Assembly: GCA_947646735.1 (NCBI GenBank)
Contig: CANTFK010000978.1
Coordinates: forward strand, 248,001-312,000
Length of the DNA stretch: 64,000 bases
Direction of reading: 5' to 3'
From: Peronospora farinosa
Taxonomy: Eukaryota > Oomycota > Peronosporomycetes > Peronosporales > Peronosporaceae
The notes under the pieces are model-generated. The model had not been told where the DNA came from. It ran no database searches and saw only the letters and a program-made list of their open reading frames with translations. The position numbers and the translations under genes were made by a program. Shown here piece by piece: positions 3,501 through 59,848 of the stretch (its first letter is position 1; every line of letters starts with the position of its first letter).

Positions 3501-5242
3501 TCGTACAGCTTACGTTGAAGACTATCATTGTGTAGGCTTTTGGCAGTGACGAGTTAAATAATCGGACATTAAATTGTCGGCACGATTACGTGCGAGCCTT
3601 CATCGATATTCTATTGATCAGGGGCTGTTGTACTATCGTAAAGATGTGGCGGATCCTCCGCGTATTGTGGTTCTTCATGACGAGGATTTGAGGTATCGTA
3701 TTCTCTAAGAGGTACATGACACCGCCATCGGGGGTCATTTGGGTCGTGAAAAGACCTATGGGGCAGTATGCCAAAGTTATTGGTGACCCAAATTATATAA
3801 ATGGGTGAACACATATGTGCGTACGTGTAAAACGTGTCAACGGGTGAAACCCTCGCCCCATTCGGCAGCGCCGCTGGCTAGTTTGCCTATTCCCACTGGG
3901 TGCTGGGAGTCCATTAGTATGGACTTTGTATTTGGCCTACCGAAAGATTCGCATGACAATACAGGTATTGTGGTCTATGTTGACCGCTTGAGCAAGATGG
4001 CTCACTTAGCGGCTGTGCCAGATTCGATCGATGGTGTGGGTACAGCGGAGCTGTTTATCGATCGTGTGTTTCGCCAACATGGCTTGCCAGTGGCAATTGT
4101 TTCTGATCGTGATCCTCGTTTCACGAGTAAATTTTGGAAGTCCGTCTTCCAGGTGCTGGGGACCCGTTTGGACATGTCCACAGCAGATCATCCGCAGACT
4201 GATGGTCAAACCGAACGCGTGAATCGCGTTGTTGAAGATATCCTACGCAGCGTTTGTGCTGAAACACCTAAGCTATGGAGCGCTATGCTCCATGTAGTTG
4301 AGTTTGCACTCGATAATTTCGTGCACGCCTCTACCGGCTACACTCCATTCTATGTCAATGGTCTCACACACCCACGCGTTCCGTTAACGCTACCACCGAG
4401 TGGTTCAGGGCTTGGTGGGGGAGAGGTTGCCGATCGGCTTGCTGATGTCAGCCCTAATACTGTTAAGAAACAGGCAAATGCGTTTCTCGCAACGCCACTA
4501 AATGTCTTACGACATGTGCAAGATGCAATGGCTGATAGTCAAGATAAACAAAAGGAATATGCAGATGCGAAAGGAATAGGTTGTATTAATGATTATGAGG
4601 TCGGAGATCAAGTATTATTGAATGCTAAAATCTACCTACCAATGTAGTATCCGCTGTCTTTAAGACGAAGTTGCGTCCGCGCTTTATCGGACCCTTTACG
4701 GTCATTGCCAAGAAAGGCACAGCGTATACGCTTAATTTGCCGCGCAAATTGCGTACACATCCTGTGTTCTACGTCGGCATGCTGAAACCATATCGGGATC
4801 CGTCCTAAATAGACGCTAAGGCGCTTGCGCCGAGCCCATTGGCATTGTCGCGGGACGAAGCATCTGCGCCAACATGTCAAGCTGACCCTGCACTCGGATT
4901 CGACTCTCTTCCAGGGACTCGAGGCGATAATTAATCGAATGCACAGTCTCACGGAGAGACTGCACCTCTTGAGGTAGCTCGGCATGAGCTTTTGTCGGTA
5001 TACCGTCCCCCTCCGGCTTTGCTTGATGGACAGGGGAACCTTCAGTTCCATGTTGAATGCTGTTGCAGAAACGTCGCCGCCGTGGTCAAAACCAGTATCT
5101 GGTGAAGTGGCAGGGTTATCCCGAGTCGTGGAATTCATGGGAGCTTGAGACTACCCTTCGGCAGGACTGCCCATACGCCGTGGACGTTTTTGAGCGTCGT
5201 GCGCAGGGTCCGCCTGTTGGCGCTGACGCTTCTCACCAGTAA
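563..5242 (+). pseudogene. pol: pol of element A: protease, RT, RNase H, integrase, chromodomain (broken)
   Basis: Protease has DSGASGNYV near 750. RT (about 2080-2900) keeps the catalytic motif YFDDIFVHS. RNase H (2977-3549) shows VCDASDFAIGSAL and YTDHASLRT. Integrase (about 3590-4808) has the HHCC finger ending CKTCQRVKP and the core residues in MDFVFGLPKD, SDRDPRF and QTDGQTERVN. The chromodomain is at 5057-5242 (YLVKWQGYPESWNSWE). Breaks: TAG at 1802-1804, a frameshift between RT and RNase H near 3000, stop codons near 3708 and 3784 (the latter TGG to TGA by alignment with D), a frameshift near 4640, and TAA at 4806-4808. The reading frame therefore changes at least three times. Confidence 0.88.
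1268..1680 (+). repeat. 87-bp tandem repeat inside the pol linker of element A
   Basis: Four units start at 1268, 1355, 1442 and 1529, and a diverged fifth starts at 1616. The period of 87 bp keeps frame and encodes a 29-residue acidic unit beginning LDVGNDIGSRIEQVKVDDLV. It lies between the protease and RT domains, a normally variable linker. Confidence 0.92.
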
Positions 5243-6103
5243 TGGTGAGGGTAGGCGGGTTAGCGGCCTTGGCCTGTCGTGGACTCGCGGCTACAGGGGT
5301 AGCCGAAACATTGGGCTGCTGGGTAGCAGACGCATAATGCGTTCGTTGAGACTTCAATTTTCCCCGGGCCTTCAATTTAGCTTAATCGTAACGCATCTTC
5401 CGCTCGAGTCGAACATCTGCCACATCGGCGCTTGCCCGTAGGACCCACATGCTGCTTAAACGTCGCGCATAATGCGCCCAGCGGCTGAAAGCCGTGTCTT
5501 CTTCGTCCTTGGTTTCCCCCGCGAACAGAAGGATGGGATCACCCTTTATTGGAGGAACTGGCGCACCGCGCACTTTCCTGTTAAGGCGTGCCAAGTATTG
5601 GCTTTGTGTAGTGATGTGGGGTTCCAGATATTGTTGTCGAAGTGCCGTGCGCGTGGCAACATCCTCAGGTGAAATGGCCTCAGGCCCAATGGTTATACTA
5701 AAAAGGGAATGCCCAGACGCTTTCTTTAGGCGTTCTATCACCGTAGGTGGCTTGAACCTGTACTGTCGGTGGTCCTGCAGTCTCGTAATATTCTTCGTCC
5801 GGCGCTTGGCGCCTTCCTCTTGGTCGATGGTCTGCTGTTGCCGCTCGTCGAGTGGGTTGGTAACCGTTACCGTTGATGATACGTCAGGCGGGTCACGTAA
5901 CGCTGTTAGCGCATCTGCAGCACCACGTTCAGGGAACGGATTCGGTGGATTCGATGACTAGTGTCATCTTCACCCGTGAGGGTTGCTTAAGGGGATCCAT
6001 CAGGTCCCACAAAGACGGTGTCACTTTCGTAATCAACCGCTTCGTCAGGGTCACCTTTGATAAGGTTCCGTAGAGTCTGTGACTCACTGCCAGGAGGCGT
6101 CAT
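4816..6103 (-). pseudogene. antisense ORF of element A (aORF-A), degenerate
   Basis: On the minus strand an ATG at 6103 opens MTPPGSESQTLRNL followed by GDPDEAVDYESD, matching the acidic N-terminal motifs of the antisense proteins of B (DEDPSLIVDY) and D (DVDPELVVDY). The middle is seen in pieces at 5741-5382 and 5375-5151. The C-terminus (about 5000 to stop 4816) is a coiled coil with LRETVHSINYRLESLEES and GQLDMLAQML. At least one in-frame stop follows DGSP near 5990, and frame changes occur between the pieces. The gene lies between pol and the 3' LTR and overlaps the chromodomain in antisense. Function is unknown. Confidence 0.65.
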
Positions 6104-6214
6104 GCTGTGTGATGTGAACAAACCGTGAGGTTTTAAGTGTTCGCTAAAGCACTACCTCTATGAGGAAAATTGTCGAGTGACATTCTATGGGAACGTCAGT
6201 CTGGTGGGGGAGGG

Positions 6215-6852
6215 TGTAACGGGGTTACACGACGGTTGTAGCGTCTTTCCGAGAGTTTACGGTTAAACTCCCTTTTGTATTGCATATAATGCATTATTAT
6301 ACTTCTCTTTAGAGAGGTATTAAGTATGAGCGTTAAGATACGGTATTCGGTAATACCGTATCTTATCGATTGAGATTCGATAAATCGATAACGCTGTACT
6401 AAGTACATCATACACAGATGTTTAGACGATACGTCGTCCAATAGCAAAGTCTGCATATAATAATTACTATTATAGTAATTAACCTAGTGTAGTGTACTTA
6501 GAGTAGGACTATTCATAAAATCTTAAAGCATAAATAAAATCAGTTCTCCTTTTGAGTTTAAGATCGCAAGTCGTTCTGACTTGTTCTCTTGTGCACTTCG
6601 TGCGTTGGTTCTCTGAACCTTAAAGCTTCTAGCTTGTTCTTGCACTCTGTGCGTTGGTTCTCTGAACCTTAAGCTTATTGCTTGCTGACTAAAAGTCTCT
6701 CCTACTTCCTTAGAACAGGGTGACTTTAAGTCGTTTAACTAGTTTCTTAGAGCTAAGTGGCTTTTAGCCTTAACTCTATTTAGTTCCCTAGAACTAAGAG
6801 GCTTCCAGCCGAAAGTCTTCCTCTGACTAAAGCGCTGTGCAGCTCAGCTACA
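6215..6852 (+). repeat. 3' LTR of element A
   Basis: Starts TGTAACGGGG directly after a purine tract (GGTGGGGGAGGG) that fits a polypurine tract, and ends GCTACA, about 638 bp. The TGTAAC...TACA ends match those of the LTRs of B and D. It contains strong hairpins (for example AGATACGGTATT paired with AATACCGTATCT around 6335-6362) and a duplicated segment near 6590-6680. The end is inferred by analogy because the 5' LTR is outside the window. Confidence 0.75.
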
Positions 6853-6867
6853 GCGTGGCTCGTCAGC

Positions 6868-7495
6868 GTGGCTCGTCAGCGCGAGTGCCCTCGTCTGTGA
6901 ACACGCCGGCAGCCGTCGAAGAACCGTCCGCCCGCGAAAGAGGCGAGGCGACTGATGAAAAGAGATTCGCGGCCCTCGCCGCAGACTAACCGCCTGGCAA
7001 AGCTCGAGTCTTCGCAGCGCGTTTGGTACGAAGACAAGAGGATGCTTGGAGCTTCGAGAGCGGCATGTTGCGTCCAAGCTTGGAGCGAACATGCGTGGAC
7101 GCCCCATGGCCATAGACGCGCTTGGGCCGCTGAAGGAGAAGCTAGAAGCACCTCGCGTGCGCGCTCGTTGCCCTGATAAAGGCGAGTCTAAGAACGCCTC
7201 GCTCGCGCCGCCGCGCGGACAGCCGTCAACTCAGTATTGCATGTCGGCACGAGCAATCGAGCCTATGGCCGCACCGCGTCAAGAAGCGCCGCCACCTGCG
7301 ACGCAAACGGCGGCAGCGATAGGAAACTACGTAATGCACACCCCGAGTCAGCGAAAACTCAACATTCGCACATTCGATGGGACGGAGCTTTACAAAGGGC
7401 TCGGGAGCGGGTTCTTTAATTTGGGGACGCACCTTCATGCGCGCCGTGAGCCTCGCTGAAGCGATGTGTGGATTCTCGTGGACGGAGGACGTGAA
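6868..7495 (+). mobile_element. Ty1/copia gag fragment, truncated
   Basis: Homologous to 19163-19790, the 5' internal and gag region of the copia element, with visible divergence of several percent. It ends at the codons for WTEDVK, exactly where the copia copy in the right inverted-repeat arm (50247) begins. Encoded fragments include FDGTELYKGLGSGF. No LTR or pol accompanies it. Confidence 0.85.
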
Positions 7496-8994
7496 GGACC
7501 CCTGCATCATAACATTACAATAATATTATAATATATGTGCTAGCAAACCCCTTCGACCATGCGTAGATATAATCGAGATGGCAAACTGACATGGCGCGGA
7601 TTGTATAGGAGTAGTAAGAGACGCAAAATAGAGTGTTGAGCCTGGAGAACATTACGTTGTGCACGAGGCTGTTTCCAAACGGTTCCTATCTTGACGATAT
7701 TGAAGGCGTGCCATTAACAAGTGACAAAGACAAAAAGTAGATTGCCTACCTGATTGTGTGTTTCTACAAAGCAGCATGTCAGCGTTCATGTACGCGTACC
7801 ATACATGTACTGGTGGACAATTGGATTTCTAGCGATTAATAGTTTTTGTCTCTCAGGTTCAGCCAAATCAAAGCTGGTAAAGAGGATAATGTGGTATTTC
7901 AAGTTATGCTCAAACATAACTCCAGCCAGTTATACCGTTTTCTTTAATTGTGATGGCGACTGAGAAACGGCGCAATATGGTGCTGCATTTTGAATTGAAC
8001 CGCCCTGTCATCATGTCGGATGCTGCTGGTGGTTGTAGCACGTTCGGTTGCCGTGCCAAAGAACCTGTTCTCAGTACTGCGTTGCCCAATGGATGATAAA
8101 GAGGCTTTGGAGCTACGATTGAGCCTGGTATCAGCCTGCAAAAGAGTATGCTCCCGTTCTCGTGTCCGACAATCACTTTGAGACGTGATGCAAAAGCTCC
8201 ATTTACTTGACGGAAAACAACATGAAGCTACCAAGCAATTGGCTGTAACGTATCCAAGTCTCGACTACAGGAAGCGTGGAGTCAAGGACGGTACTACTTG
8301 TTGCCATCATTTTGCAATTTCTATCTTACTTTACGTCCCTCGAAGTGACGTAAGAGGAGCTCAATGTGACGCTTGTGTTTCGTACTCTTGGTGACGATGT
8401 TGTAGAGGTTGTACAGGAATTGGATCTCCTTGTAGACGGTCACCACCTGATCGGACTTCCAACAATGGCAGACCATTTCCGTCTCAAGCTACAACCAAGT
8501 GCTCGTTGTGTTGCTACGTTCTACCGTGATGGATCTGAAGCTGACGACACGGCTTTAGCTTTGGGCACACTCATCAAGGTACCATTCTCCACCAAGCTCG
8601 CGAAGGAAGGGGCCTACTCACCCAACAACTGAGAGTGATTTACGAATACTAGTCTATCCAGGAGACGCCTGAAGGTATGCTTGAAGGTGCTAGTATACTG
8701 GCACTTCGTGACTACTAGGAGTGGTGGAGCGCCCACGCCGAAAATGGCCAGTATGGAAAATTGCTGCTTATTGATGAAGACAAGGCAGTGATGAACGGCG
8801 ATGTCGCTGTCGTTTTGACTATCACATCGAGGCAAAGCACTCTCACAGTGTGGACGTGCGTGACATGCGTTCAGGAGCTTCTGTGGGCTTTGAAAAGTTG
8901 TGGGAAGTATTTATAGTGGATAGAGCTTTTGCAACCATCACGGAGTTAAAATTAATTCATTCGCTGTCCAAGATGTACACGGTGTAGCTTTGCT
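7496..8994. other. Degenerate host-like DNA, no recognised gene
   Basis: Codon-like but broken sequence without transposon motifs. The most coding-like piece is 8366-8632 (+), 88 aa (VVEVVQELDLLVDGHHLIGL and RDGSEADDTALALG), preceded by another open piece at 8185-8394. I do not recognise either protein. They could be exons or remnants of one host gene; no convincing start, splice sites or family motif could be fixed. Confidence 0.3.
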
Positions 8995-10069: not shown

Positions 10070-10673
10070 TGTAACAGGGTACCTAGTTACACGTAAACAT
10101 TAAGTAATATACTTAATGTTTGGTCTAAAAGTATCCATGATTACTTTTGACCAGTCACTTGGGTGCGACACACAAATGTGATCCACCCTCGTGAATGTGA
10201 TATCCATTGATGGATTCACATGAGAAGGGATGACGCTAGTTGGAGCTAGGCATCACGACGTCTCAGAAGGACGTCAGTTGCGATCTTAAATCTAGATTTA
10301 AGATCATGCGACAGGATACGCTTCTAAAGAGTCGCGTATCCGATCTATATATATATATATATATAGCCAATCAGTAGTTAAACATATATTTAGTTATAAT
10401 TAATTAATATATCTCAGTCTTGAATTTCCTTAAACAGAAACACCACGCACGAGAAGTTGAAAGACTTCTGCGTGACGTCGGTGTTCTAAGTGTTAAGAAG
10501 TTCGTTGCACTCTCGCTTAAGCGAGAGGCAACTGGTGGTACGACTGCTTAAGCAGTCGACCAACCTCCCAACCACCCTCGCACGCGAAGGTAAGACGGTA
10601 TAACCGCTTCCTCGCTTGTGCATAAGGTGTGTGCTCGTAATACGAGGCAACTTCATAGAAGTGCCCGTCTACA
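10070..10673 (+). repeat. 5' LTR of element B
   Basis: TGTAACAGGG ... GTCTACA, 604 bp. It is composed largely of successive inverted repeats, such as AACATTAAGT/ACTTAATGTT, GATCTTAAATC/GATTTAAGATC, GGATACGC/GCGTATCC and TCTCGCTTAAGCGAGA. A (TA)n run near 10345-10365 is 8 bp longer than in the 3' LTR. Confidence 0.93.
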
Positions 10674-10675
10674 CT

Positions 10676-11832: not shown

Positions 11833-14800
11833 TCGCGGACTCTGAAGCTACCCCTAAGCTCAGAGTGATCGAACAAATGGGTAGCATAGTCCCTGAGGTT
11901 CCGAAAGGTCGGAACTCAACCCTTTTGGTCTATAGCGCTCGAGTACGAGGCTATGACCAAGTGATGACCCTTCTCGTGGATTCGGGTGCATCACAAAACT
12001 TTGTGAAACTCGCGGCTCTGAAAAAGAGTCCGGCGAGTATGAGTCGCTTTGCCAGGATGGCAAGCGAGAAAAGGCGATCGTTCGTTTAGCGAACAGCGCG
12101 CTCGTAATATCAGAGGGAGTTCAAGTTGAACTCGCCTTCAGTTTCAGTGACTTTTCTTGTAAAGAGAAGTTCACAGTGCTAGGTATGGAGAGTCCGTATG
12201 ACCTTATCCTAGGCATGCCTTGGTTGGCTAAACACCAACCATGGATAGACTGGCGCACACGCACAGTCGCTAGCTCTACGCAAGACACCGGAAAGGATGT
12301 TCTCCTACGAGAGGATTATGTTACTGATAATATATGTCCAATACAGTCGAGATTGCGATGACAGTATGCCAATCGGTACCAGGTAATACCCAGCTCACTG
12401 AGCCTGGATTAGTCGAAAGTGTACTGACAGAAATTGAGGTGGCAAGAATTCCTACCTAGCTCGAGGAGACTGGTGTAGTGAATGGGACGATGACAAGTAT
12501 TCATGCGTCCAATAGTCCTGCACAGAGCCGAGAGCCTGTGGCAGTTGATGGTGGGATGATAGAAACTCAAGCACCACAAAACCGGCACAGAGCCAAGAGC
12601 CTGGTGGAAGGAGTGCGTTAGCTGAAATAGCAACGACACCTTTTTCCAGGTCAAAGGTCGTGGTGACTCGAACAGAGAGCACCAGACGTATTAAGACGAT
12701 CAAGGGCACGTCGAAATGAGTGACCCTTGGATCAATCTCGGTCCAAGAGGACGGACCTACGAACGAGTTGTTCGAGGCCGTCGAAGACAAAATGCCGGAG
12801 GCATCCTTAGTTGAGGTGCTCCAACTTATCTTGGCATCTGCCGAGGAGATAGTAAATCTCTCGGAGATGACGTGGGATTTGTTCCTGTCCGAACTAAAGG
12901 TAGGAAAGATCCACGAGATAGTCGCACCAGTTCCAGAAGAGAGCGTGGTGGACTGTTGCTCTTCATCCACAATGGATGAGAGCGTCTTGGAGACCGACAA
13001 AAAGAAACGGTTCGCTGCTCAAAGCTGGGATGCCTTGAAGGACAGCCCGTTCTATGATGTTCTGTGGAAACACCGTGATGTGTTTCCAGCAGAAGTGCCG
13101 AGCCGCCTACCGGCCGATAGGGGCATCAGGCACGAAATTGACCTGGAGCCTGGCACCAAGTATTGTGTGACCAGGCAATGGCCGTTGCCGAAGGAACAAG
13201 TCGATCACATCGATGAGTTCTTCGACAAGCGAGCTAAGGCGGGACATGTACGTGAGAGCAAGTCGCCTCACTGCAGCCCGACCTTCTGTGTGCGTAAAGC
13301 AACAGGTGGATGGCGCGTGGTTCACGCTTATAATAAGCTAAACACGGCCACCATTCCAGCTCAAACGCCGATCCCGCGGAAAGATGTTTTGTTGAATTCC
13401 ATGGGAAAGTCAACTATCTTTTCCGCGTTGGATCTGAAGGATGGCTACTATCAGGTTCTCATGAGAGATACTGATGTAGCCAAAACGGCAGTAAGCACCC
13501 CAAGCGGTATGCTGTGGGAGTGGCTTGTGATGCCACAAGGGTTGAAAAATGCTCCGGCAACATTCAACCGAGTGGTGATGCATCAAGTACCGTGCCTACG
13601 CGCCCCATTACTTTAACGATGTATTCGTGCATAGTAGGGGGGAGGACGGTCTGAGTGCAATAGAGTCGCACAAGCGTCATTTAGACGCTGTGTTGCAGAC
13701 TCTGGGTGACGCCCAATTATACCTTAACTTGCAAAAGTGCGTAATAGGGGTCCCCAAGATACCTGTACTGGGCTGCACATGGTGTACGAGCAGACCCAGA
13801 AAAGGTAAAGGCTGTAAAGGAATGACCAGTCCCACGTCATGTGAAGGATCTGCGCCAATTCCTTGGTCTCGCTAATTACTTGCATAAGTACAGCAAGAAT
13901 TATGCGGAGCAGACTAAGCCATTGTCTGATCTTTTAAAAAAGGATACAGAATGGACTTGGTCGAAGGAACAAGAAGATGCGTTCACTTCAGTGAAGCAAT
14001 CTCTTGTAGAGGCACCGGTCTTGGCATTGCCAGACGCGGATAAGTCCTTTAGCGTCGTCTGCGATGCAAGCAATTTTGCATTCGGCAGCGCGCTCATGCA
14101 GAAGGATGACAGCGGCGTTTACCGTGTCATTTCTATCAGTCTCGGCTTTTGAAAGCAGCAAAGCTGAATTACCCTGTGCATGACAAGGAGCTACTTTCAA
14201 TTAAGTATGTCCTTGTGAAGTTTCGGGTGCACCTCTTGGGCAACGAACCTTTTGTGGTTTATACGGATCACGCATCACTGCGGACCGCTATAAATTCACC
14301 GCACCTCTCGCCGAGAATGGCAAGATGGCTAACATTCTTCTCTGGATTTAAATTTCAAAGTTGAATATAATCCAGGTAAGTCGAATGTCTTTACTGACGC
14401 GTTATCGCGCAGACCAGACTTCGAGGCAAGACACCAGGAAAGCGTGTCTCGTGCGAAACACAAGTTGAGTCGCCAACATTGGCAGCGATGAAGGCCTACC
14501 ATGTGACGAGCTCAATGGCCTCCGATATCAAGGAGTGTTACAGGCAGGACGAACATTGTCGCCTGCTGTTGGATCATTTTAGTGGGTAAAAGGTTACCCT
14601 TCCGTCGCACCTCAAAGCGAAACTAAATCGCTTTAGTTACAGTGATGGCCTGTTATGGCATCAACTGTCACCCTGTGATCCCTTGAGAATCTATGTCCCT
14701 CATGACACAGATCTCAAGCTGATGATACTTCACGAGTGCCATGATGCGCCATCTAGTGGGCATCTGGGCCGTGAAAAGACATTCTTACGAGTGTCAGAGG

Positions 14801-16605
14801 AATTTTGGTGGCCCCACCTATATCGGTGGGTGGCCAACTATATTCGCTCTTGTGAAGAGTGTCAGCGCATAAAGCCTGCACTTTTGAACAGTGCGCCACT
14901 GAAGCCACTGCCGATTCCAACTGAATGTTGGAAGTCGGTCAGTTTGGACTTCATGTTTGGCTTACCGCCTGATCATAAAAGCAGGACGGGGCTCGTCGTC
15001 TTTGTAGACAGACCGAGCAAGATGGTGCATATGGCACCATGTAGCACCAAGATCTCAGGAAAAGAGGCTGCCCTCTTGTTCCTGGAATACGTGTATCGAC
15101 TACGCGGGATGCCCGAGTCCATAGTATCGGACCGGGATCCGCGTTTTACGTCGGGTTTTTGGCGACATGTGTTCGAGCTGCTGGGTAGCAAGCTCCACAT
15201 GTCAACCGCTGATCATCCCCAGACCGATGGCCAAACAGAACGGGCCAATCGAGTCGTGGCGGATGTGTTGCGTACAATAGCGACTCCCAAAGAATGGAGC
15301 AAGCAATTGCCATTCGTGGAGCTCGCTATTAATAACAGTGTTCACGCCAGTACGGGTGAAACACCGTTTTACATTAACGGACTGCGTCATCCTCGAACGC
15401 CAGTCTCTTTTGTACGCAGCCCGAGTCTTAGTGGGGGAGGGCCCCTCACTTCGCTCGGTGCGAATGCCAAAGAGGGCCAAGGTTGCCCTAGTGACACTGC
15501 TAATTTAGCAGTGGTCACGACACCTATAGGTGTCACAAAGGAGGCACGGCAAGAAATGCCAGTGCTCCTTGATGATGACACTATAGTGTTGTCAACAGCG
15601 TCGACCCATGAACGACCTCTTGGAGGCGTCATAGGCGAGCTGGATGCTAAAAGCGTGAGCGAAGCTCAGCGCTTTGTGGATGAGCGATTAGCCATCACAC
15701 GTAAAGTACGTGACGCGATGGCAAGCGCACAGGACAAGCAAAAACAATATTCAGACCAGCATGGTCGCAAAAACAATGAACACTTTAGTGTGGGGGACAA
15801 AGTGCTATTAAGTACTGCTACCCTACCTAAACATGCAATTTCTGTACTACCTGGTGGTACTACTAAGCTATTGCCCCGGTTCATTGGGCCATTTACAATG
15901 GTTAAAGAAGTTGGAGACCTAAATTATAGGCTCACTCTCCCACCGTATATGAAGATGCACCCCGTATTTTACGTGTGTCGTCTGAAACGGTATGTTGATC
16001 CAGAAGAGATCACATATCCGCATCGGTCTAACGGGACTGATGGTGACGTCGACTGTGAGTCGAGCGTCGCGACCGATCAGGCGACGAGGAAGCCGAGAGG
16101 CTCCCCGTGTGTGAACGAGGCGATAGAGGACCCGGTGATCAAGGAGGACTCCGCGCTTGACGCGGGTCTCTCATCACCAGTCGCTCTAAGATGTCCAAAC
16201 GGGTCTTCAGGCGGTCATACCCCTGACGGTCCCTCAGCCTCACACCGCGCAGATCCAAAGTCAGTCGCGAGACTTGGCTCTCGAGATCTGTCACCTGTCT
16301 CTTCAGCGCAGCAGACTCAGCCTGCGACTGAACAGCAGCAGGGTAGGCAGCCGCGATTAGGTGGGCGTAGTCGCCGCTCCTATCGGGCGCCACCTGTGTT
16401 GGTGGACACGGAAGGGAATACGCGCTTCCGTGTTGGAAGGCTGTTGGCCCACCGGTTTGTGAAGCGAAAGCTCCAAATCCTTGTCCAATGGAAGGGTTAC
16501 CCAACGAGCTTTGACTCGTGGGAGCCTGTGGACGCTTTGCGCGTTGACGTGCCTGGGCTGGTGGCTGCTTATGGGAAGCAGCACCAGCTGTCTTCTTTCT
16601 GCTAG
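11816..16605 (+). pseudogene. pol: pol of element B: protease, RT, RNase H (broken); integrase and chromodomain intact
   Basis: Protease DSGASQNFV near 11980; a frameshift follows near 12088. The RT ORF is 12720-13616. A small deletion then shifts frame, and the catalytic motif reads YFND (AAC at 13615-13617), so RT is dead. RNase H fragments lie at 13841-14364 (VCDASNFAFGSAL, YTDHASLRT). From 14683 to 16605 one 640-aa ORF carries the integrase HHCC finger (ECHDAPSSGHLGREKTF ... CEECQRIKP), core residues in SLDFMFGLPPD, SDRDPRF and QTDGQTERAN, a GPF module and a C-terminal chromodomain (ILVQWKGYPTSFDSWEP). The last 467 bp overlap the antisense ORF. Confidence 0.9.
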
Positions 16606-17473
16606 GTCCGGAAGGACTAGCAGAAGAAGCGTGGCGAGAATTAATTGGGGGTCGCTTACCGCCCATAATTTCATGCGCACGCTTCATGGCGAAGCTGATT
16701 CGCTGCGACCGCTGTTTCGTTGCATCTTCATGCAAGGTAACACGGCGCCGAAGTTCGGCTTCATAGTCGTCGGCTGTTTCGTTAGAACACAGCACGACTG
16801 GAATTGGGAAAGCACGACCAAGTGCTTTGCCCTGCTTTTTCCACAAAGGAAAGACGCTATAGAATTTATGAGCGTATATAGTGGCACGCTGCAAAAGCGA
16901 TGCGCTAGACCCATCTGAGTTCATCCACTCAGATGGAGGTGGCATTGGTGGCAAGCCACCACTCACGTAGCCGCCCTCACGACGGCGGGCTAGTGAGGCC
17001 GAAGGTGTACTTGGTGGAGCTTTAAGCTCACACTCACCTGAGTCTGACTCTCCATTATGGCTTGTCAAGACATCAGCCTGAGAAGTAACACCTGACTGAG
17101 TCGCGACTACTCCTTTCGAAGTAGCGTGCTCAGTCATAGTTGCTGCGCTCGTAGGCGCAGACGACGAGGCTTTACCTTCGTTTGTAGGAAGCATAGATGC
17201 TTCCTCAAGGACGGGTGCCTCAAATGATGGGGACATATGTCCCATCAATGCACTATGCTCATCGCCACTTTGGGGTGATGGCAGTGGTGTAGTCTGATTG
17301 TAGTCTACAATGAGAGATGGATCTTCATCCACATTATCGTGTGATGGAAGATCCACCCCAGTGCCTGTAGCACTTTGCGACGGCTGCGATAAATCGCGGC
17401 GCGTGCGCTTAGTGCTGGACTGCATGGGTGCCTTTGCAGGCGACCCATCAGCCTTACCACGTTTCGGTGGCAT
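16139..17473 (-). CDS. Antisense ORF of element B (aORF-B), 444 aa, unknown function
   Basis: Complete minus-strand ORF starting MPPKRGKADG, 107 bp inside the 3' LTR. A Ser/Pro/Thr-rich acidic N-terminus contains DEDPSLIVDY. A middle segment has FPIPVVLCSNETADDYEAEL and a basic helix. A disordered Ser/Pro/Gln part follows. The C-terminus is a coiled coil (LKRQVTDLESQVSRLTLDL, TRLDILERL). It overlaps the end of pol by 467 bp, so its coiled coil is antisense to the integrase-chromodomain linker and chromodomain. The N-terminal motif and C-terminal coil recur in the antisense ORFs of A and D, arguing against a chance ORF. Expression would need an antisense promoter in or near the 3' LTR. No known family was recognised. 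Confidence 0.75.
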   Translation of the reverse strand: MPPKRGKADGSPAKAPMQSSTKRTRRDLSQPSQSATGTGVDLPSHDNVDEDPSLIVDYNQTTPLPSPQSGDEHSALMGHMSPSFEAPVLEEASMLPTNEGKASSSAPTSAATMTEHATSKGVVATQSGVTSQADVLTSHNGESDSGECELKAPPSTPSASLARRREGGYVSGGLPPMPPPSEWMNSDGSSASLLQRATIYAHKFYSVFPLWKKQGKALGRAFPIPVVLCSNETADDYEAELRRRVTLHEDATKQRSQRISFAMKRAHEIMGGKRPPINSRHASSASPSGPSRKKTAGAASHKQPPAQARQRAKRPQAPTSQSSLGNPSIGQGFGAFASQTGGPTAFQHGSAYSLPCPPTQVAPDRSGDYAHLIAAAYPAAVQSQAESAALKRQVTDLESQVSRLTLDLRGVRLRDRQGYDRLKTRLDILERLVMRDPRQARSPP

Positions 17474-17579: not shown

Positions 17580-18175
17580 TGTAAGAGGGTACTTAGTTAC
17601 ACGTAAACATTAAGTAATATACTTAATGTTTGGTCTAAAAGTATCCATGATTACTTTTGACCAGTCACTTGGGCGCGACACACAAATGTGATCCACCCTC
17701 GTGAATGTGATATCCATTGATGGATTCACATGAGAAGGGATGACGCTAGTTGAAGCTAGGCATCACGACGTCTCAGAAGGACGTCAGTTGCGATCTTAAA
17801 TCTAGATTTAAGATCATGCGACAGGATACGCTTCTAAAGAGTCGCGTATCCGATCTATATATATATAGCCAATCAGTAGTTAAACATATATTTAGTTATA
17901 ATTAATTAATATATCTCAGTCTTGAATTTCCTTAAACAGAAACACCACGCACGAGAAGTTGAAAGACTTCTGCGTGACGTCGGTGTTCTAAGTGTTAAGA
18001 AGTTCGTTGCACTCTCGCTTAAGCGAGAGGCAACTGGTGGTACGACTGCTTAAGCAGTCGACCAACCTCCCAACCACCCTCGCACGCGAAGGTAAGACGG
18101 TATAACCGCTTCCTCGCTTGTGCATAAGGTGTGTGCTCGTAATACGAGGCAACTTCATAGAAGTGCCCGTCTACA
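17580..18175 (+). repeat. 3' LTR of element B
   Basis: TGTAAGAGGG ... GTCTACA, 596 bp, preceded by the purine-rich ACGGGGAATGG. It matches the 5' LTR apart from a shorter TA run and about five substitutions seen by eye. CACAA follows directly, as expected for the target duplication. Confidence 0.93.
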
Positions 18176-18716
18176 CACAATCTTTGACAATAGATCCAGC
18201 AACATACTCATTCGTAACGTCTTTAAAACTCGCCATCGCAGTCTCCACCTCGTCCGTCTTCGCTTCGTTCTTCTTCACCCTATTTTTCTCCACCTCATTC
18301 TTCTCCACACTCTCTTCTTTCTCGACAACAATCTGCACAATCTCTTTCTCCTTAATCTCTATCTTTTTCTCTTTAACCTCCATTTTATTCTCTTCAATCT
18401 CTGTACGCTCTTCCAACTCTCCATTCTTCTTCTCTTCATTCTTCTTTTCATCTTCCATAATAGCATCCTTCTTCGCTTATATTGTCACCTTTACATCAGT
18501 AGCAGTACCATCTGTTCTAGGAGATGACGTCAGTGTGTCATCACTTGCTGACGATGACACATCACAATTGTCGAAATCTTCAAATCTTCTTCGAGGTCTC
18601 TTCCTCGGTCGTTTTCTCTCTTCTTTCACTCGTTCAATTGATGGATATATGACGTCTTGACATCTTAATCTTCTTCTTTCAAACTTTCTTTTTCTTCTTC
18701 TTGTTCTTCTTCTCAT
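18176..18716 (-). pseudogene. Basic/acidic low-complexity host gene, 5' part, cut by element B
   Basis: Minus-strand coding of highly charged sequence: RERKRPRKRPRRR-like basic clusters at 18660-18580, DFDNCDVSSSASDDTLTSS, then Lys/Glu-rich EDEKKNEEKKNGELEERTE and EVKEKKIEIKEKEI. One stop (about 18477) separates the two open pieces. Nuclear-localisation-like clusters suggest a nuclear protein; no domain was recognised. Coding continues in frame from 18177 into 10069 if element B and one CACAA are ignored. Confidence 0.45.
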
Positions 18717-23957: not shown

Positions 23958-24138
23958 GAGCGCGACGCGGATGAAGGACTGGAAATCGAGAACGAGAGAG
24001 ATGGCTGCGTCATAGTGCGCAACATGGCAGAGGCGCGCGTGAGGAGCTCAAGCTAGAAGGATTTTCAAGGACGCTAAGGAAGGAAAAGAACGTTGAAGGA
24101 TGAAGAGAGAGAAGAGATAAGGCGCAATTGAGAAGGAG

Positions 24139-27450: not shown

Positions 27451-27451
27451 A

Positions 27452-28077: not shown

Positions 28078-28139
28078 TTGTCTGAAGATCTGATTCCTTG
28101 CGTCGACTGGTCTGATCCTTGTGTTAAATGGTCAGGAGT

Positions 28140-42586: not shown

Positions 42587-42587
42587 T

Positions 42588-45669: not shown

Positions 45670-45898
45670 TGTTGGCAAGTAAGCTTGCTGCAGTAGGAAG
45701 GCGATAAGATTCTGTATATTGATTGCTTTGTCTTTTTGTCTGCCTCTCTCCTAGCCACTCTTTCTCCAAAACACTCTGTGCTCCAACCATCTCGATATAG
45801 ATAGTCGATAGTCAACTTGTCTACTACCCACTTGCTCTGACCATCCATGATCAGATGACGGCTGGCGCTAATCGCAATCTTCAACCTCAACTCCAACA
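45670..45898 (-). repeat. 3' LTR of right copia element
   Basis: TGTTGG ... CCAACA, 229 bp, mirror of 24139-24367. Confidence 0.85.
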
Positions 45899-50510: not shown

Positions 50511-50619
50511 TCAAATTGACTCCGGTAAAGCCTCAAAACCTTTAGCCGGAGAGGGTAGCTCGCTCGAGTCTAAACCTTTCTGACGTGTCGCCGGTAGCTC
50601 GTTTATGTCGGAACTTATC

Positions 50620-51000
50620 TTCCGTTTCTCCGGCGGACGCTCTACCGAGTCGAAGCTTTCAGCTGGTAGCTCGTTTAAGTTGATACTTTCAGCTGGTAGC
50701 TCGTTCAAGTCCAAACTTTCAGTCGGTAGCTCGTTTAAGGTGATACCTTCAGCTGATAGCTCGTTCGAGCCCAAACCTTTTTGCCGTTTCGCCGGTATTT
50801 CGTTTATGTCGAAAGTTATCTTCCGTTTTGCCGGTGGACGCTTTACCGAGTCGAAGCTTTCAGCTGGTAGCTCGTTTAAGTTGATACCTTCAGCTGGTAA
50901 CTCGTTCAAGTTCAAACTTTCAGTCGGTAGCTCGTTTAAGGTGTTACTTTCAGCCGGTAGCGCATTCAAGTTGAGGCCTTTTTGTCGTTCCGCCGTTGGA
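50620..51000 (-). repeat. 30-bp tandem repeat encoding LNELPAES units
   Basis: Units of 30 bp (TTTCAGCTGGTAGCTCGTTT on plus) encode ELPAESINLN-like decapeptides. These sit in a longer unit of about 70-75 residues repeated twice, each with RPPxKRKI and KGL segments. Confidence 0.85.
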
Positions 51001-51409
51001 TGCTCTTCCGAGACGAAACTTTCAACCGGTAGCTTGCTCACTGGTGCTTCTGGTCGCGCTTTTGCTTCTGCTAGTGCTTCTGGTCGTGCTTCTGGTCGTG
51101 CTTCTGGCCGTGATTCTAATCGTGCTTCTGATGGTACTTCTGGTGGTGCTTCTGATAGTACTTCTGGTGAGGCTTCTAATGGGGCTTCCGCTTCTGCTAG
51201 TGCTTCTGGTGATGCCTCTGCTAGTGCTTCTGGTGGTGCTTCTGCTAGTGCTTCTAGTGGGGCTTCTGGTGAGGCATCTGGTGGAGCTTCTTTTAGTGCT
51301 GATGCTGGTGCTGCCGGTGCTAGTGCTACTTCTGGTGCTAATGCTGGCGCTGATGTTGATGCTGGCGCTGATGTTGATGCTGACGGTGCTGGTGCTACTG
51401 CTGGTGCTA

Positions 51410-51905
51410 ATGCTGGCGCTGATGTTGATGCTGCCGGTGCTGGTGCTACTGCTGGCGCTGATGTTGATGCTGCCGGTGCTGGTGCTACTGCTGGCGCTGA
51501 TGTTGATGCTGATGTTGATGCTATTGCTGATGCTGCTGGTGGTGCTGGTGTTGATATTGGTGGACGCTCTTCCAGGTCATAATTCTGCGGTTTCGAAGGT
51601 TTCGGCGATCGCTTTTTCAAAGCTTTTTGCAGTTTCAAAGGTTTCGGCAATCTTTTTTTCGCTGATGTTGATGCTGATGCTGCCGGTGCTGGTGCTACTG
51701 CTGGCGCTGATGTTGATGCTGCCGGTGCTGGTGCTACTGCTGGCGCTGATGTTGATGCTGATGTTGATGCTATTGCTGATGCTGCTGGTGGTGCTGGTGT
51801 TGATATTGGTGGACGCTCTTCCAGGTCATAATTCTGCGGTTTCGAAGGTTTCGGCGATCGCTTTTTCAAAGCTTTTTGCAGTTTCAAAGGTTTCGGCAAT
51901 CTTTT
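51410..51905 (-). repeat. 249-bp tandem duplication in the effector tail
   Basis: Two near-identical units with period 249 bp (AATTCTGCGG at 51581 and 51830 on plus) encode KPLKLQKALKKRSPKPSKPQ followed by Ala/Pro-rich sequence. They differ by one A/T in the homopolymer at the unit edge. Confidence 0.9.
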
Positions 51906-52269
51906 TTCGAATCCTTTTGCACTTTCGGAAGTTTTTGCAATCCTGTTTCCAAAAATTCTTGCAGTCTTTGTAGGATAGGTATCTTCCCCATGCTTGTGTC
52001 ATCTAGATCATCCTTGCTCTTCCTCCCCTTACTTACGTTGATTGCATCGATTGCTTTGATTCTGTCGTCTAAAACATCCACAAAAGCATCCTTGCTTTCG
52101 AAATACGATAACAGTACGTCAAGCATCACCTTATCTGCCTTTTCCGGGTTACGGTATCGATCCCGGACGACTTTAACCCACTTGAAAAAGACCGGGCTTT
52201 TCAAAGGGTTGTCTTTCGTCTTGTGGAGCTGCAAAAGGTCGAAAACCTCTCTGTCAGATATGTTGTCGA

Positions 52270-52730
52270 TGTAACGGGGCGAGCCCGTTACATAATATTG
52301 ACACTTATATGAAGTGTCAACAAAAATATTATTATAACTAATAATATTTTGACAATATTACCTTCTCTTATAATATTGTTCCTAGATCTCCTTGAAGTTG
52401 GAGATGCCCTCTCATTGGTTGATATGGGCCATCATATCAACCAACGCGCTGACCAATGACCGATGGACGCGCGCAATGAGTAGAGGGCAAGTTGTCAACA
52501 TACATAGTTGTAGTTTAATATAGTTAACATAGGTTATAACAGATTAGTTTTATTAAGATAGTTAACTATATTAAATACAGTTTTCTTTTCCTCTACTTCT
52601 AAGCGTTTGTTTAGAAGTAAAGCTTCCTCTGCCTCTTGTGTAGGAGAGGTAATTGAGGCACCTGCTTTCACTGTAATCAGTGAAAGTAGACTATACTGTA
52701 ATCAGTATAGTCGGAGGGTGCCCCATTACA
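52270..52730 (+). repeat. 5' LTR of element D
   Basis: TGTAACGGGG ... CCCCATTACA, 461 bp. Largely a chain of hairpins: GTAACGGG/CCCGTTAC, TGACACTT/AAGTGTCA, GTTGATATG/CATATCAAC, CTTTCACTG/CAGTGAAAG, ACTATACTG/CAGTATAGT. Confidence 0.96.
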
Positions 52731-53981: not shown

Positions 53982-56900
53982 TCCAGCAACGTCAAGAGAG
54001 TTCGCGGGACTCTTGACGAAGGTTGCTCCCAACACACAGTCACTGTGTGTTGCCGCTCCCAGTGATGAGGTATCCCTCATCACATTGAAGATCGAAGTGA
54101 CAAAGAACATGTCACTTCGCGCCCTAGTTGATTGTGGGGCTTCGAACAACTTTGTTCGACGCCAATCGCTAGATGATCGTAGGCTCAAATATGTTACAAT
54201 AAAGAAACGTGTAGTGGGAATTCACTACACGCTTAAAGGCAAAAAGTACAATGATGATTTCATCGTACTTGATCTGGATGACAAATTTGATGTCATCCTA
54301 GGATTACCATGGCTCAGAAGGTACGAGCCATGGGTCAGCTGGCAGCATCAAACCGTGAAGATGCCTGCCGCTTGTTCATCAGATGGCCATCTGATGAATG
54401 TCTTGGAGCGTTCACAAGCGTGTGAATGTACTACGAGTGAGTGTGATGGCCTCACTTGTGGTTCGGTCGTTAGTACGACTGCACAAGAACTCAGCGTGAC
54501 AGACAGTCACGCTGTGGAACAAGCTGCCGGCGGCTGTGCACAAGCACAGGCAGCGCCGAAGGTCCACCACTCGAATAAGTCGAGTGGACCGGGACATGAA
54601 TGCTCGCCTAGAGGGCAGCATTCACCGAAGAGTAAACCGGTTGCCCAGAAGCGGCAACACGGTAATCCTAGATCAACTGGAGAGTTGATCGTAGAGGATC
54701 TCGCTGTGGTTGCGCCACCACAGCTAAAGGAAGTCGATGGAACAGGTTCCATCGAGCCTGCGGGAATAAGTCCCCAGGAAATAATCACTGAGGGAATAAG
54801 TCCCCAGTGCCCTGAGGGAATAAGTCCCCAGGAAGTAACCGAGACGTTAAACGTCTTGGTTAATGACGGATCAAACGTAGGCGCTTATATGTTTGATCTG
54901 ATCGCGCCTCCGAAGTTAACTTCGGAGATAACTCAGTTGCCTACGCTAGAACCTAAAAGGTTCTTGCGTGATCTGCGTAGTGGCAAAGTCAAGCAGATCT
55001 GTGTGCTCGTCGCAGAGGACGAGTACATGACTCACATTCGGTCAGCAACATTTTTTGCCGAGAACGAACGGGTTCTCAGCATCTCCCCAATGGACGAAAG
55101 TGTCCTTGTTGAGAAGACTCGAATTGAACGATATACATCGCAATCCTGGGAGTCGCTGAAGTCAAATCCTTTGTACAAGGATTTGGTCGAATTCAAGGAT
55201 GTATTCCCTGAATCCGTTCCGTGCGAGTTACCTAAGGATAAAGGTACTCGACACGAGATCGAATTTGTTCCTGGCACAAAATATTGTGTCATGAAGCAGT
55301 GTCCACTGCCTCGGGAACAGGTCGAGGCGATCGACAAGTTCTTTGCCGATCGCCTAGCAGCGGGCCATGTGAGGGAGTCAACTTCACCTCACATCTCTCC
55401 GACCTTCTGTGTGCGTAAGGCCACAGGAGGGTGGCGGATAGTGCACGCGTTCAACAAGTTGAACGCTGCAACGATACCGGCGCAAACGCCGATACCGAGA
55501 AAGGACGTAATCATAGATGGTATGTCTAAGAGTACCATCTTTTCGTCCATGGATCTGATGGATGGTTTCTATCAGATCCTAATACGTGAACGGGACATCC
55601 CGTACACAGCAGTGAGCACTCCCAGTGGTATGCTCTGGAAATGGTTGATGATGCCGCAAGGGCTCAGTAATGCACCAGACACATTCAATAGATGTGTCTC
55701 ACATCTATTGAGACCGGTGCGCGAATTCGCACCGAGTTACTTCGATGATGTGTTCGTCCATAGTCGGGCTATGGACGGGAAAACAGACGTGAAAGTCCAT
55801 AGACTCCACGTCCGTAAGGTTCTTACACTTATGCGAGAGCATAAGTTGTACGCCAACCTCAAGAAGTGTATATTCGCAGCTAGCGAAATACCACTTCTAT
55901 AGTGCATCGTCGGAAAGAACGGCGTACGCCATGATCCAAAAAAGATCAAGGCGATCACCGACTGGCCAGTGCCAGTCGATGTCAAGGGACTAAGGAAGTT
56001 CCTTGGGCTAGCGGCGTACTTGCACAAGTACTCGCGCAATTACGCCGAAATGACAGTACATCTTTTTTGTTTACTCAAGAAAAATGTAAAGTGGAATTGG
56101 AACGCTGATTGTCAGCGTTCCTTTGAACGTATCAAGCAAAGCTTGATGCAATCGCCAGTGTTGGCGATTGCCGATCAAGACAGACCATTTCATGTGGTCT
56201 GTGACGCCAGTGATTTTGCAATCGGCTGCGCACTGATGCAATATGATACAGACGGCGCCGAGCGTGTCGTCTGTTATCAATCGCGGCAGCTGCAACCGGC
56301 TGAGCGCAATTACCCGGTGCATGACAAGGAACTCCTTGCCATGAAGTATGCACTGGCTAAGTTTCGCGTCTATCTCTTAGGAGATAGACCGTTCATTGTA
56401 TATACAGACCATGCGTCACTACGCACGGCTGTAAATAGTCCACACCTCTCGCAACGAATGGCGAGATGGTTGTCATTCTTCGCGGAGTACAACTTCTCCG
56501 TGGAGTATAAGCCGGGACGACTTAACGTCGTCGCCGATGCTCTCTCACGTCGGCCTGACCTAGAGCCGACTGTGCAATCCGACAGTGATGTGAACACCAC
56601 TGTCGCCACGCTGAGTACCAGCGTCTTGTCGTCGAGTTTACTCGACGACATTAGAATGGCATGCGCACAAGATAATGATCTTGTACGCCTGATGAAGTAC
56701 CTCAAGGACCCATCCACGCAAGCTAAGAAGAGCTTGCCTGCCATGTATCGATCTTCTCTAGATCGATATACCCAGCGGGACGGCTTACTGTACTACACAG
56801 CCGTCAACAACGACACGCCTCGTGTCGTTGTACCGCCACAACATGATCTCAGGTTACGGATCATGTTTGAATGTGACGATGCACCAATAAGTGGGCATCG

Positions 56901-58806
56901 CGGCCGTGAGAAAACTTACCTCACGGTCAGTCGCGACTTTTACTGGCCACGCCAGTATAAGTTTGCGCGCAAGTACGTGCGTGCTTGCGAGGTGTGTCAA
57001 CGAGTGAAGCCTAGTCCTTCACTCCGTGCACCATTGCAGCCTCTACCTGTTCCGGCAGAGTGCTGGGAGTCCGTATCAATGGACTTCGTCTTTGGGTTTC
57101 CCAAAGACGCTCACGGGAATAATGGTATTCTCGTGTTTGTAGACAGTTTCAGCAAGATGGTACATCTTGTTGCTGTACCTGAGTCGATCACAGCAGAGGG
57201 CTGTGCTCGAGTGTTTATCGATACAATCTTTCGATAGCACGGTTTACCCCGTGAACTTGTGTCCGATAGGGACCCCCGGTTCACGGCTGAGATTTGGCGT
57301 TCCGTGTTCCAAACACTTGGAACACGGCTCACAATGTCTACTTCTGACCATCCAGAAACCGATGGTCAGACTGAACGCGCCAATCGCGTCCTCGAAGAGA
57401 TTCTTCGAGGGTACGTCCACTCGTTTACGAGTTGAAGTGAGTTCTTGTCGATGGTCGAATTCGCCATCAACAACTCCGTGCATGCGTCTACGACGCATAC
57501 ACCGTTCTACGTGAATGGCCTTCGCCATTCACGTGTCCCCACCTTAGTAGAAGGTGACTCTAATTCAAGAGGGGGAGGAACTCGCTCGAGCGAGAACCAA
57601 TCTGGCTCTTGCTCATCACGCGACGACGTTATGGTCGACACGAAAGTAACCGAAGTCGTACCATTCGACTTCAGTGAAGAGGAAGAAAGTAAGAGCGATG
57701 ACGCTCTTACTGACAACGATGCTGAAGATATCAGCATCGTTCGAGGTATCACAAGTGAGAACAGTAATGTTCTCACTGCATTAGTAACCGATATCTCTGC
57801 AGTGCATTCACAATGCACTGAAGCCAAAAGCAACGAGTCAGCTGAGGATTTCCTGCTGACTCGTGAAGCGGTAGTCCGTTTCGTGCAAGACTCCATCGCG
57901 GAAGCGGTGGATAAGCAAAAGCGAAACGCAGACAATAATGGAAGGGCAAATTCTCAAACATTTATTGAAGGTGATTTAATTTTACTGTCAACAGTAAACC
58001 TACCTAAACATGTAGTGACTAACGTGGGCAGCAATAAATTGTTGCCCAAGTACATCGGCCCGTTTCGTGTATTGCGCCGCCTAGGCAACGCATACACGAT
58101 CGAGTTGCCACGCAGGATGCGTACGCATCCTACGTTTTACGTGGGACGTCTTCGTCCGTACGTTCAGTACGCGGCTTCTTCGAACGACGAAGATAGCCAT
58201 TACTCTCAAGAATCCCCTTCATATTCTTGTTGTCACGAACCAGATTCGATATCTGGTCGTGTAGAGATGAGATCTTCCCATGATATTGGACGATCTCCTG
58301 ACGAGCTGTCGCCAGCTCGTTACTCAGAGAAAGAAGCAGCCGTTCATTCTCCAATAGTGCGACAGCATTGTTTGCCCGAGACCTCTCATGGTCAAACCCA
58401 AGCTGTCGCACAATGTCCTCTAAGCGGCGACGCTTATCTCGTTCGTGATCAACATCACAACGGAGCTCACGAGTTACACGGGCAAACCCGTCTAACTCAG
58501 CAGCCAAGTCCGATGAAAGAATCGGACAGGGTTTTCCCTACACCACCGCATCCGCTGGTGGACTCCCATGGTGGGAAGCGCTTCCTCGTGGAACGCTTAC
58601 TAAAGCACCGCGAGGTGAAGGGACGTCGGACGAGTTATCTCGTCCGGTGGCGTGGCTATCCGCCTTCGGCGGATAGCTGGGAACCTCGGGCCCAACTGAT
58701 AGCCGACGTTCCCGGCCTTGTCGAACAGTACGACAAGGGGCACCCGATGGTGAAGGACCATCGGAAAACGAGCTCCCAGCGCGCTCGTAAAGGGATTGCA
58801 AAGTAG
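53948..58806 (+). pseudogene. pol: pol of element D: protease, RT, RNase H, integrase, chromodomain; single frame with three nonsense codons
   Basis: One continuous frame, -1 to gag. Protease DCGASNNFV near 54140. RT (about 55240-55910) keeps YFDDVFVHS. RNase H has VCDASDFAIGCAL and YTDHASLRT (about 56200-56430). Integrase has the finger ECDDAPISGHRGREKTY ... CEVCQRVKP, core SMDFVFGFPKD, SDRDPRF, ETDGQTERAN, and a GPF module near 58060. The chromodomain reads YLVRWRGYPPSADSWEP near 58640. Stops: TAG 55900-55902 (Gly expected), TAG 57235-57237 (Gln expected in FRQHGLP), TGA 57433-57435 (Trp expected). There are no frameshifts. The last 677 bp overlap the antisense ORF. Confidence 0.92.
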
Positions 58807-59848
58807 CAATCCCTTCACGCATTTCGGAAGAGATGCGAGCCCTCCACCAGGGATCAGTAAGGAGGTACGCCTCCTTAGGCGCTTTTGACGAGGTGCTCAG
58901 GCACCCCGGGCATTGGTCGCCCCAAGAGAGGCATAACAGGCCTGCCTCTCTAGATAACCGGTGCAAACGATAGCATGCACCGGAAGTACTTCGTTTCTCA
59001 AACTTATTGCGGCTAGCATAAAGTCTTTGAAACCAAGCCTCTTTCCCAACGTTTAAAACGTTGGTGATAAACGCGTTCCAAGATTGGAGGAACGCGTCAG
59101 CCTCACGCTTCTTGTGTGGGCCATACCATCGATGTTCAAGGAACACATCGATGTAATAATCGTTCTCAGTGCGAAAGTTCTTCGCACTGGCGTCAAGGCC
59201 GTGAAGCTTTGACGCATCAAACAACGGTATGGAGAACCGTTCGTTGGTCTTTCCAGACCAACGATCAAGCAGATGCTTAGGTAGCATCCATGGCTTGCGA
59301 TCAGGAGCAAGACGCAATACGTTGCGGTCTAAAGCCTCCTGCATGGTGTCAACAGAAGTACCGACACCACGAGCATTAGTGTCAACAGAAGTACCGACAC
59401 TATGATTATTGATGTCAGTAGAAGCACTGACATCACCCTTACGGTCCCCACCCGAGTCACTATCCTTCGACTCGTTTGGCGAGTCGTCTGATTCATCAGA
59501 CGACCCGAACATTTCACGGTACATTGATTCACTCAATGTACCACGATCCCTCTTCGTAGCATTAGACGACGAGGTGTCACCCCGGGGAGAGCCCGGGAGT
59601 GGAATAGGTGACTTTGAGCCGGATGCGTCATCCGACTCACCTGAGTAGTCAACGACTAACTCTGGGTCAACATCTTCACGTGGCGAAGCGCTACGTGAAC
59701 CTGCAACAGGCGTTGCAGGCTGATGTTGACTTCCAGCAGACACATTAGTGTCTGCTGGCTGAGGCTGTGAAGCCTCAGTAGCGGCTGCACACAGGCGTGC
59801 AGCCGAGCTCTTGGCTGCCTTAGCAGCGACGCGCATTGACTTTGTCAT
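58130..59848 (-). pseudogene. Antisense ORF of element D (aORF-D), 572 codons with one UAG
   Basis: Starts MTKSMRVAAKAAK at 59848, 95 bp inside the 3' LTR. The N-terminus is Ser/Asp-rich with DVDPELVVDYSGESDD and SPIPLPGSP. The central region may be folded (SIPLFDASKLHGLDASAKN, NDYYIDVFLEHRWYGPHKKR, FQRLYASRNKFEKR). A single TAG at 58538-58540 is followed in the same frame by a coiled coil (LEDIVRQLGFDHERSRAN, LLLSLSNELATARQEIV) that ends in a basic segment at 58130. The overlap with pol has the same phase as in B. An Inr+FPR-like sequence lies 5-18 nt before the ATG. No known family was recognised; a structural or regulatory role is only a guess. Confidence 0.72.

Follow-up and report, generated by a model that had tools for sequence, protein, structure and literature searches.

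An antisense gene overlapping the end of pol in several chromodomain-bearing gypsy families of Peronospora farinosa

Do the long open reading frames that run antisense to the end of pol in oomycete gypsy retrotransposons represent genes, and if so, are they one gene and what might it do? The question is raised by a 64,000-nucleotide stretch of the Peronospora farinosa genome (assembly GCA_947646735.1, contig CANTFK010000978.1, positions 248,001 to 312,000 of the forward strand; hereafter the window), in which three gypsy-type long terminal repeat (LTR) retrotransposons, elements A, B and D, each carry an antisense frame (aORF-A, aORF-B and aORF-D, for antisense open reading frame) between pol and the 3′ LTR and in the opposite orientation to gag-pol. 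The analysis demonstrates a real antisense gene in several gypsy families, which is clearly under selection in families A and B and probably in D. The same antisense overlap is also present in a fourth family, E, making the finding wider than a first-pass annotation of the window had it.

The coordinates, strand and layout given in that annotation proved right: the antisense frames start 92 bp (aORF-D, 59848), 106 bp (aORF-B, 17473) and 111 bp (ATG of aORF-A, 6103-6101) from 3′ LTRs that begin at 59941, 17580 and 6215, respectively. That each window element holds an open antisense frame is correct for B and D, both of which end early, and incorrect for A, whose window copy is not one open frame. 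Compared with intact sister copies, window aORF-B is 37 codons shorter than its counterpart at locus L011, window aORF-D is cut by a TAG past which the frame continues to 58133 (the sister copy L002 comprises 572 codons from the same ATG), and window aORF-A has suffered two in-frame stops and two frame changes. The acidic N-terminal motif of A, initially read as GDPDEAVDY, is DDLDEAVDY in the intact copy. In the intact copies, 60-67% of each antisense frame lies outside pol. A Pfam scan found an integrase, a Tf2-1-like SH3 domain and a chromodomain in pol of both B and D, and the chromodomain of families A and E was placed by a chromodomain search of the whole genome; the pol proteins of A, B and D are 35-67% identical to one another over their aligned parts.

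Homologous frames were abundant in searches of the P. farinosa genome itself (46.9 Mb, 274 contigs), with at least 104 matches for D, at least 95 for B and at least 151 for A. The full query was covered without a stop in 14 of the 104 D and 27 of the 95 B matches, while 30 of the A matches listed contained a stop-free open frame of 443 amino acids. When the best 150 of 1483 candidates from the chromodomain search were scored, 129 had an A, D or E antisense frame on the other strand within 2.5 kb (59 D, 53 A and 17 E); the other 21 showed no pairing among the A, D and E matches compared. Family E surfaced in this search. It has 130 genome matches, 7 of them full and without stop and 6 of those in a 471-residue open frame, and at loci L064 and L065 the antisense frame extends over at least 356-357 residues from a start reading MNPRRPRNN or MDPRRPRNN. 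Its position antisense to the pol end was observed directly, and placement relative to the LTR is known for A, B and D only. Locus L065 also contains, beside the E element, a second gypsy-like pol (L065:426-1917) with protease-like and reverse transcriptase-like stretches recognised by eye.

Codon constraint was measured in aligned copies from this genome (20 for D, 18 for B and 13 for A). Outside the pol overlap, the pooled ratio of nonsynonymous to synonymous polymorphism (pN/pS) in the antisense frame was 0.32 for A (bootstrap 95% interval 0.25-0.42), 0.53 for B (0.39-0.73) and a weak 0.68 for D (0.49-0.92), intervals that are too narrow in that copy pairs are non-independent. Four control frames, which guard against mutation bias, yielded 1.11-1.61 (A), 0.83-1.08 (B) and 0.76-1.20 (D). 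A fifth control frame, r2, was low (0.39, 0.62 and 0.72 for A, B and D), as expected because its wobble position is common to the antisense frame; the reference copies contain 7, 8 and 11 stops, respectively, in r2 and none in the antisense frame. For pol alone, pN/pS was 0.41 in A (28 pairs), 0.47 in B (21 pairs) and 0.68 in D (190 pairs), so constraint on the antisense genes seems comparable to that on pol within these copies.

The distribution of variants over codon positions was similarly informative. Among variants present in at least two copies outside the overlap, counts at positions 1/2/3 were 26/20/59 in A (p = 3e-6) and 15/19/35 in B (p = 0.0075), and A retained its signal with singletons included (p = 4e-10). 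The pol-only part served as an internal control, with a peak at the pol wobble position in A (10/29/10) and D (82/141/95); the counts for B (4/11/6) were not significant. In family E, three pairs, not including L064, gave small synonymous/nonsynonymous counts outside the overlap (14/14, 2/8 and 15/21). Selection outside the overlap is clear for A and B, where the antisense gene evolves as a protein under purifying selection. In D, where the codon signal is weak, the gene is probably selected as well, with support mainly from its relatives.

A second line of evidence is the phase of the overlap. The antisense codon grid, already described as shifted by +1 from the pol grid in A, B and D, keeps this shift in the intact sister copies of all three and in family E (as worked out on locus L065), which means that pol third positions face antisense second positions. 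In the pol-only part this phase contains 21 (A), 29 (B) and 34 (D) stops, compared to 10 and 9, 19 and 14, and 28 and 19 in the other two antisense phases. It also holds more stops than the other antisense phases in the remaining pol pieces tested, except for window positions 57451-58530, a piece that takes in part of the aORF-D overlap. Nonetheless, it is open in the overlap for about 141 (A), 191 (B) and 224 (D) codons; the chance of an open stretch that long is roughly 4e-6 to 5e-5, a rough figure as stops are unevenly spread. Since the shared phase is the most stop-rich elsewhere in pol, the antisense frames are hardly a by-product of pol.

Protein searches (E-value 0.001 or better, about 8000 scored candidates per family) returned 137 relatives for D, 70 for A and 14 for B; those at about 30-60% identity come from other species or unnamed contigs. 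The best matches were all from Peronospora effusa, with 95% (A), 96% (B) and 79% (D) identity, the last containing an insertion and reaching 93% in the alignment; a partial B match from P. farinosa was 96% identical. Named sources of D relatives are P. effusa and P. matthiolae (among the matches listed, 120 of 137), and one P. matthiolae cluster comprises 1335 member sequences. Named A relatives come from P. effusa, P. matthiolae, P. destructor, Hyaloperonospora arabidopsidis, H. brassicae and Phytophthora sojae, the last represented by one protein at 30% identity. For B only P. effusa and P. farinosa are named, the more distant relatives (47-62%) being from unnamed contigs, as are many A and D relatives. 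A search of viral contigs with the A and D profiles found no relatives, and a search of the P. farinosa genome with a distant D relative revealed no clearly separate D-like family. In alignments of chosen proteins (16 D, 21 A and 8 B), the core outside pol was the best conserved part of D (median 57% vs 39-44% in the overlap) and of A (61% vs 42%); B showed similar values for its core (60%) and for the coiled-coil part of the overlap (62%).

That the frames amount to more than chance is therefore clear for A and B, while D, weaker within the genome, is supported by its relatives and the stop counts. It is scarcely credible that they are by-products of pol codon composition in young, undecayed copies: the D copy is indeed young (LTRs 100% identical), between-family similarity lies partly within the pol overlap and the within-genome codon evidence for D is weak, but we reject this explanation on account of the codon constraint in A and B over the larger, pol-free part of the frame, the conserved core, the relatives at about 30-60% identity and the stop-rich shared phase. 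Also very unlikely is that only the antisense RNA matters, through double-stranded or small RNA control, with the protein incidental. Double-stranded RNA could form from the overlapping transcripts, and roles of antisense RNA are discussed for other elements (in passages of PMC7264820), but selection in A and B outside the overlap acts on a single reading frame, something that an RNA function by itself would leave unexplained.

Whether the antisense genes are one gene is a separate matter. The first-pass annotation had taken A, B and D to share a gene on the basis of an acidic motif, which is weak evidence alone: BLASTP matched it between B and D at an E-value of 0.077 and found no such match for A-B or A-D, and the homology of all three by BLASTP was likewise discarded, nothing convincing having been obtained. 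Full-length profile comparison gave E-values of 6.6e-10 for A-B, with much of the alignment in the pol overlap, and 1.5e-4 for D-B, almost wholly in the overlap. Outside pol, hhalign aligned A and B over 35 columns (GVPILLFAGETEDEEDTAFSRWAH vs PIPVVLRSNETADDYEAELRRRVT; E-value 2.6e-5), and at the acidic motif it gave E-values of 0.016 for B-D and 0.12 for A-D. A first shuffle control, in which the real score was reached by 1 of 60 (A-B) and 8 of 60 (A-D) shuffles, produced aberrant scores above 130 in two of the three comparisons and was redone on gap-trimmed profiles. The A-B score was then 42.1 vs at most 20.5 in 70 shuffles, B-D reached 27.7 vs at most 24.3 with an alignment over the low-complexity N-terminus, and the A-D score of 19.6 was equalled in 3 of 70 shuffles. 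D and E scored 28.9 vs at most 19.2 in 60 shuffles, over about 100 columns and with an hhalign probability of 9%; they have in common a pattern W.AFI / CP.C (LQSWNAFI and CPGC in D, LQRSWCAFI and CPTC in E). Profile comparisons of A-E and B-E found nothing. Judged by these alignments, A and B are related outside the overlap, and D seems closer to E than to A, the B-D signal being marginal. The idea of one shared gene is consequently supported only in part; the genes appear to fall into two or more types, A/B and D/E, which agree in orientation and phase and for which a single origin is possible.

Comparable genes have been described in other groups. Boty, a gypsy element of Botrytis cinerea, reportedly carries an antisense additional gene, brtn (Zhao et al. 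2011), and by description it resembles the present case in combining such a gene with a gypsy element of a filamentous plant pathogen. HTLV-1 HBZ is an antisense gene near the 3′ LTR that encodes an acidic N-terminus, a basic middle and a C-terminal zipper; the likeness is one of layout only. At an E-value of 0.1, neither the bZIP family nor PF04195, the Pfam family of the Retand antisense protein considered below, was found in the window B and D proteins, the A piece, 21 A-type and 16 D-type proteins, which were the ones scanned. A search of the genome for PF04195 also gave nothing, and neither did the control genomes. An antisense promoter in the 3′ LTR of HTLV is mentioned in passages of PMC7264820, and brtn is treated in a methods passage of PMC8365987.

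According to passages of PMC7264820 and PMC11963269, antisense genes located between pol and the 3′ LTR form a recognised class. The plant genes designated aORF-3R (Grande gene23, RIRE2 and PvRetro13) occur in many copies with function unknown, and Grande GENE23 is reported to be nuclear and to have its own promoter (PMC7264820, same passages). The oomycete genes are like these in position and in their many copies and, as in the general definition of aORF-3R, are found in most family copies and conserved as protein, with a weak pN/pS in D. They differ, compared by description, in belonging to an oomycete, in residing in chromodomain elements and in their long fixed-phase pol overlap. The TRP28 antisense frame (PF04195) of Retand, present in 97% of the clusters surveyed (in a passage of PMC11963269), has the same place and orientation, but Retand represents a non-chromovirus lineage, whereas the oomycete families carry a chromodomain. 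Oomycete LTR retrotransposons with an integrase chromodomain are known in the form of Chronos, which has an additional RNase H (aRNH; main text of PMC5348765); among the Pfam matches of the window D and B pol pieces there was no further RNase H family. The word antisense does not occur in that main text, and the statement that no such architecture has been described in oomycetes stands as far as the titles and abstract openings listed in literature searches go, subscription journals being mostly uncovered.

By simple counts, the A, B and D proteins have an acidic N-terminal part (mild in B) and a basic stretch from about residue 240, and the E protein is rich in RS and basic residues. From these counts and the analogy with plant antisense frames (passages of PMC7264820), we infer a regulatory role, and we lean towards the reading that the selected antisense gene encodes a nuclear accessory regulator of the element. 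An antisense transcript would start in or beside the 3′ LTR and give rise to a nuclear protein whose N-terminal part is acidic and which has a conserved core and basic stretches; the putative C-terminal coiled coil of A, B and D would mediate self-association. The protein would most likely act on the element's own transcription, or on handling of the pre-integration complex or chromatin together with the chromodomain integrase, and the overlapping antisense transcription may add regulation at the RNA level. Initiator-like motifs matched weakly near the B and D antisense starts and not near that of A; they were not used as evidence, in the case of B because the match overlaps the polypurine tract. 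The accessory protein proposed earlier is well supported as regards selection in A and B, and in D mainly via its relatives.

Several observations weigh against this reading. The D control frames reach down to a pN/pS of 0.76, so that D is not cleanly separated from them, and D variants in at least two copies (16/12/24) are not significantly skewed (p = 0.12). With singletons included, the codon-position signal is absent in B (p = 0.28) and D (p = 0.73), as would be expected if most singletons postdate insertion. Within the overlap no codon position stands out in A, B or D, and pN/pS of the antisense frame is 0.83, 0.63 and 0.78, respectively. Conservation of the N-terminal parts outside pol (38-45%) does not exceed that of the overlap, and the relatives in other species are protein sequences without genomic surroundings. 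Pfam and PDB searches gave weak matches only, many to coiled-coil proteins, and no relative that would support a function. The heptad pattern of the C-terminal run of A, B and D, with hydrophobics at 9-10 of 12 a/d positions, was counted without a control, and the part of E examined has neither heptads nor a VDY motif. Finally, the antisense genes are known here from sequence alone.

Two other roles for the protein deserve consideration. It is unlikely to be a structural protein, either a second capsid-like or a particle-associated one: the conserved core and likely coiled coil would permit assembly, and the W.AFI / CP.C pattern common to the D and E cores would fit, but no Gag, capsid or zinc-knuckle family appears among the Pfam matches of the antisense proteins scanned, and the D and A profiles have no such match in the PDB. 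Somewhat more plausible, though still improbable, is that it counteracts host silencing or chromatin repression and may have been acquired from a host or a virus. A conserved core combined with a more variable N-terminal part would suit such a protein, as would its occurrence so far only in oomycetes and unnamed contigs; however, no host relative was identified, those from named sources are oomycete proteins recorded as unnamed, uncharacterised or hypothetical, and a D cluster of 1335 members is what is expected of elements. Returning to the accessory regulator, a more far-reaching version can be put forward tentatively. All four families might carry one ancient antisense gene, older than the split between downy mildews and Phytophthora, that defines an oomycete lineage of chromodomain gypsy elements. 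Its phase would have stayed fixed while the protein diverged beyond easy recognition into the A/B and D/E types, and its product would be a nuclear regulator that resembles HBZ but has an origin independent of retroviruses.

Table 1. Coordinates in the window of the LTRs, pol regions and antisense frames of elements A, B and D
Feature	Position	Strand	Remarks
5′ LTR, element D	52268..52730	+	463 bp, 100% identical to 3′ LTR of element D
3′ LTR, element D	59941..60403	+	463 bp, LTR comparison
5′ LTR, element B	10070..10674	+	98% identical to 3′ LTR of element B
3′ LTR, element B	17580..18176	+	LTR comparison
Polypurine stretch and first 3′ LTR base, element A (TGTAACGGGG)	6203..6215	+	by eye
pol, element D, two open pieces (54109-55902 and 56050-57237)	54109..57237	+	protease, reverse transcriptase, RNase H, start of integrase
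pol 3′ part, element D	57451..58806	+	Tf2-1-like SH3, chromodomain; overlapped tail-to-tail by aORF-D
pol, element B	14722..16605	+	integrase, SH3, chromodomain; end overlapped by aORF-B
aORF-D	58133..59848	-	in-frame TAG at 58538-58540 ends window copy at 436 amino acids
aORF-D outside pol	58807..59848	-	includes best conserved core, residues 170-347
aORF-B	16139..17473	-	444 amino acids in window copy, 481 in sister copy L011
aORF-B outside pol	16606..17473	-	core related to that of A by profile comparison
aORF-A	4816..6103	-	decayed copy; sister copy L022 encodes 427 amino acids
Longest open piece of window aORF-A	5385..5957	-	191 amino acids, most of conserved core

Some further features of the window were recorded. 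The 5′ start of element A lies beyond the window, and its open frame at 524-1804 contains about five tandem 87-bp units (1241-1675), which are located downstream of a protease-like DSGAS stretch and encode SLDVGNDIGSRIEQVKVDDLVS or near it. Element B is enclosed by a pair of direct repeats (6866-7497 and 19162-19795; 94% identical, 12.3 kb apart), which may be the LTRs of an older element interrupted by the insertion of B. An inverted repeat (19791-30627 and 39419-50246) with arms of about 10.8 kb, 98.9% identical with 41 gapped positions, surrounds an 8.8-kb spacer; it may have arisen by a recent inverted duplication or be an artefact of the assembly. Dense tandem repeats with 9-18 bp spacings, along with 201-bp and 249-bp duplications, occupy 50556-51907, inside or beside open frames at 50605-51582 and 51131-51973.

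The antisense accessory genes of LTR elements described in the literature consulted belong mainly to plants, a single fungal element and certain retroviruses. The oomycete families, with intact copies, relatives in other species and a fixed overlap, offer a separate, independent setting for measuring and testing selection on genes of this kind. The results, for example the cluster of 1335 member sequences, also suggest that many downy-mildew proteins now listed as uncharacterised would be transposon accessory proteins and not host genes.

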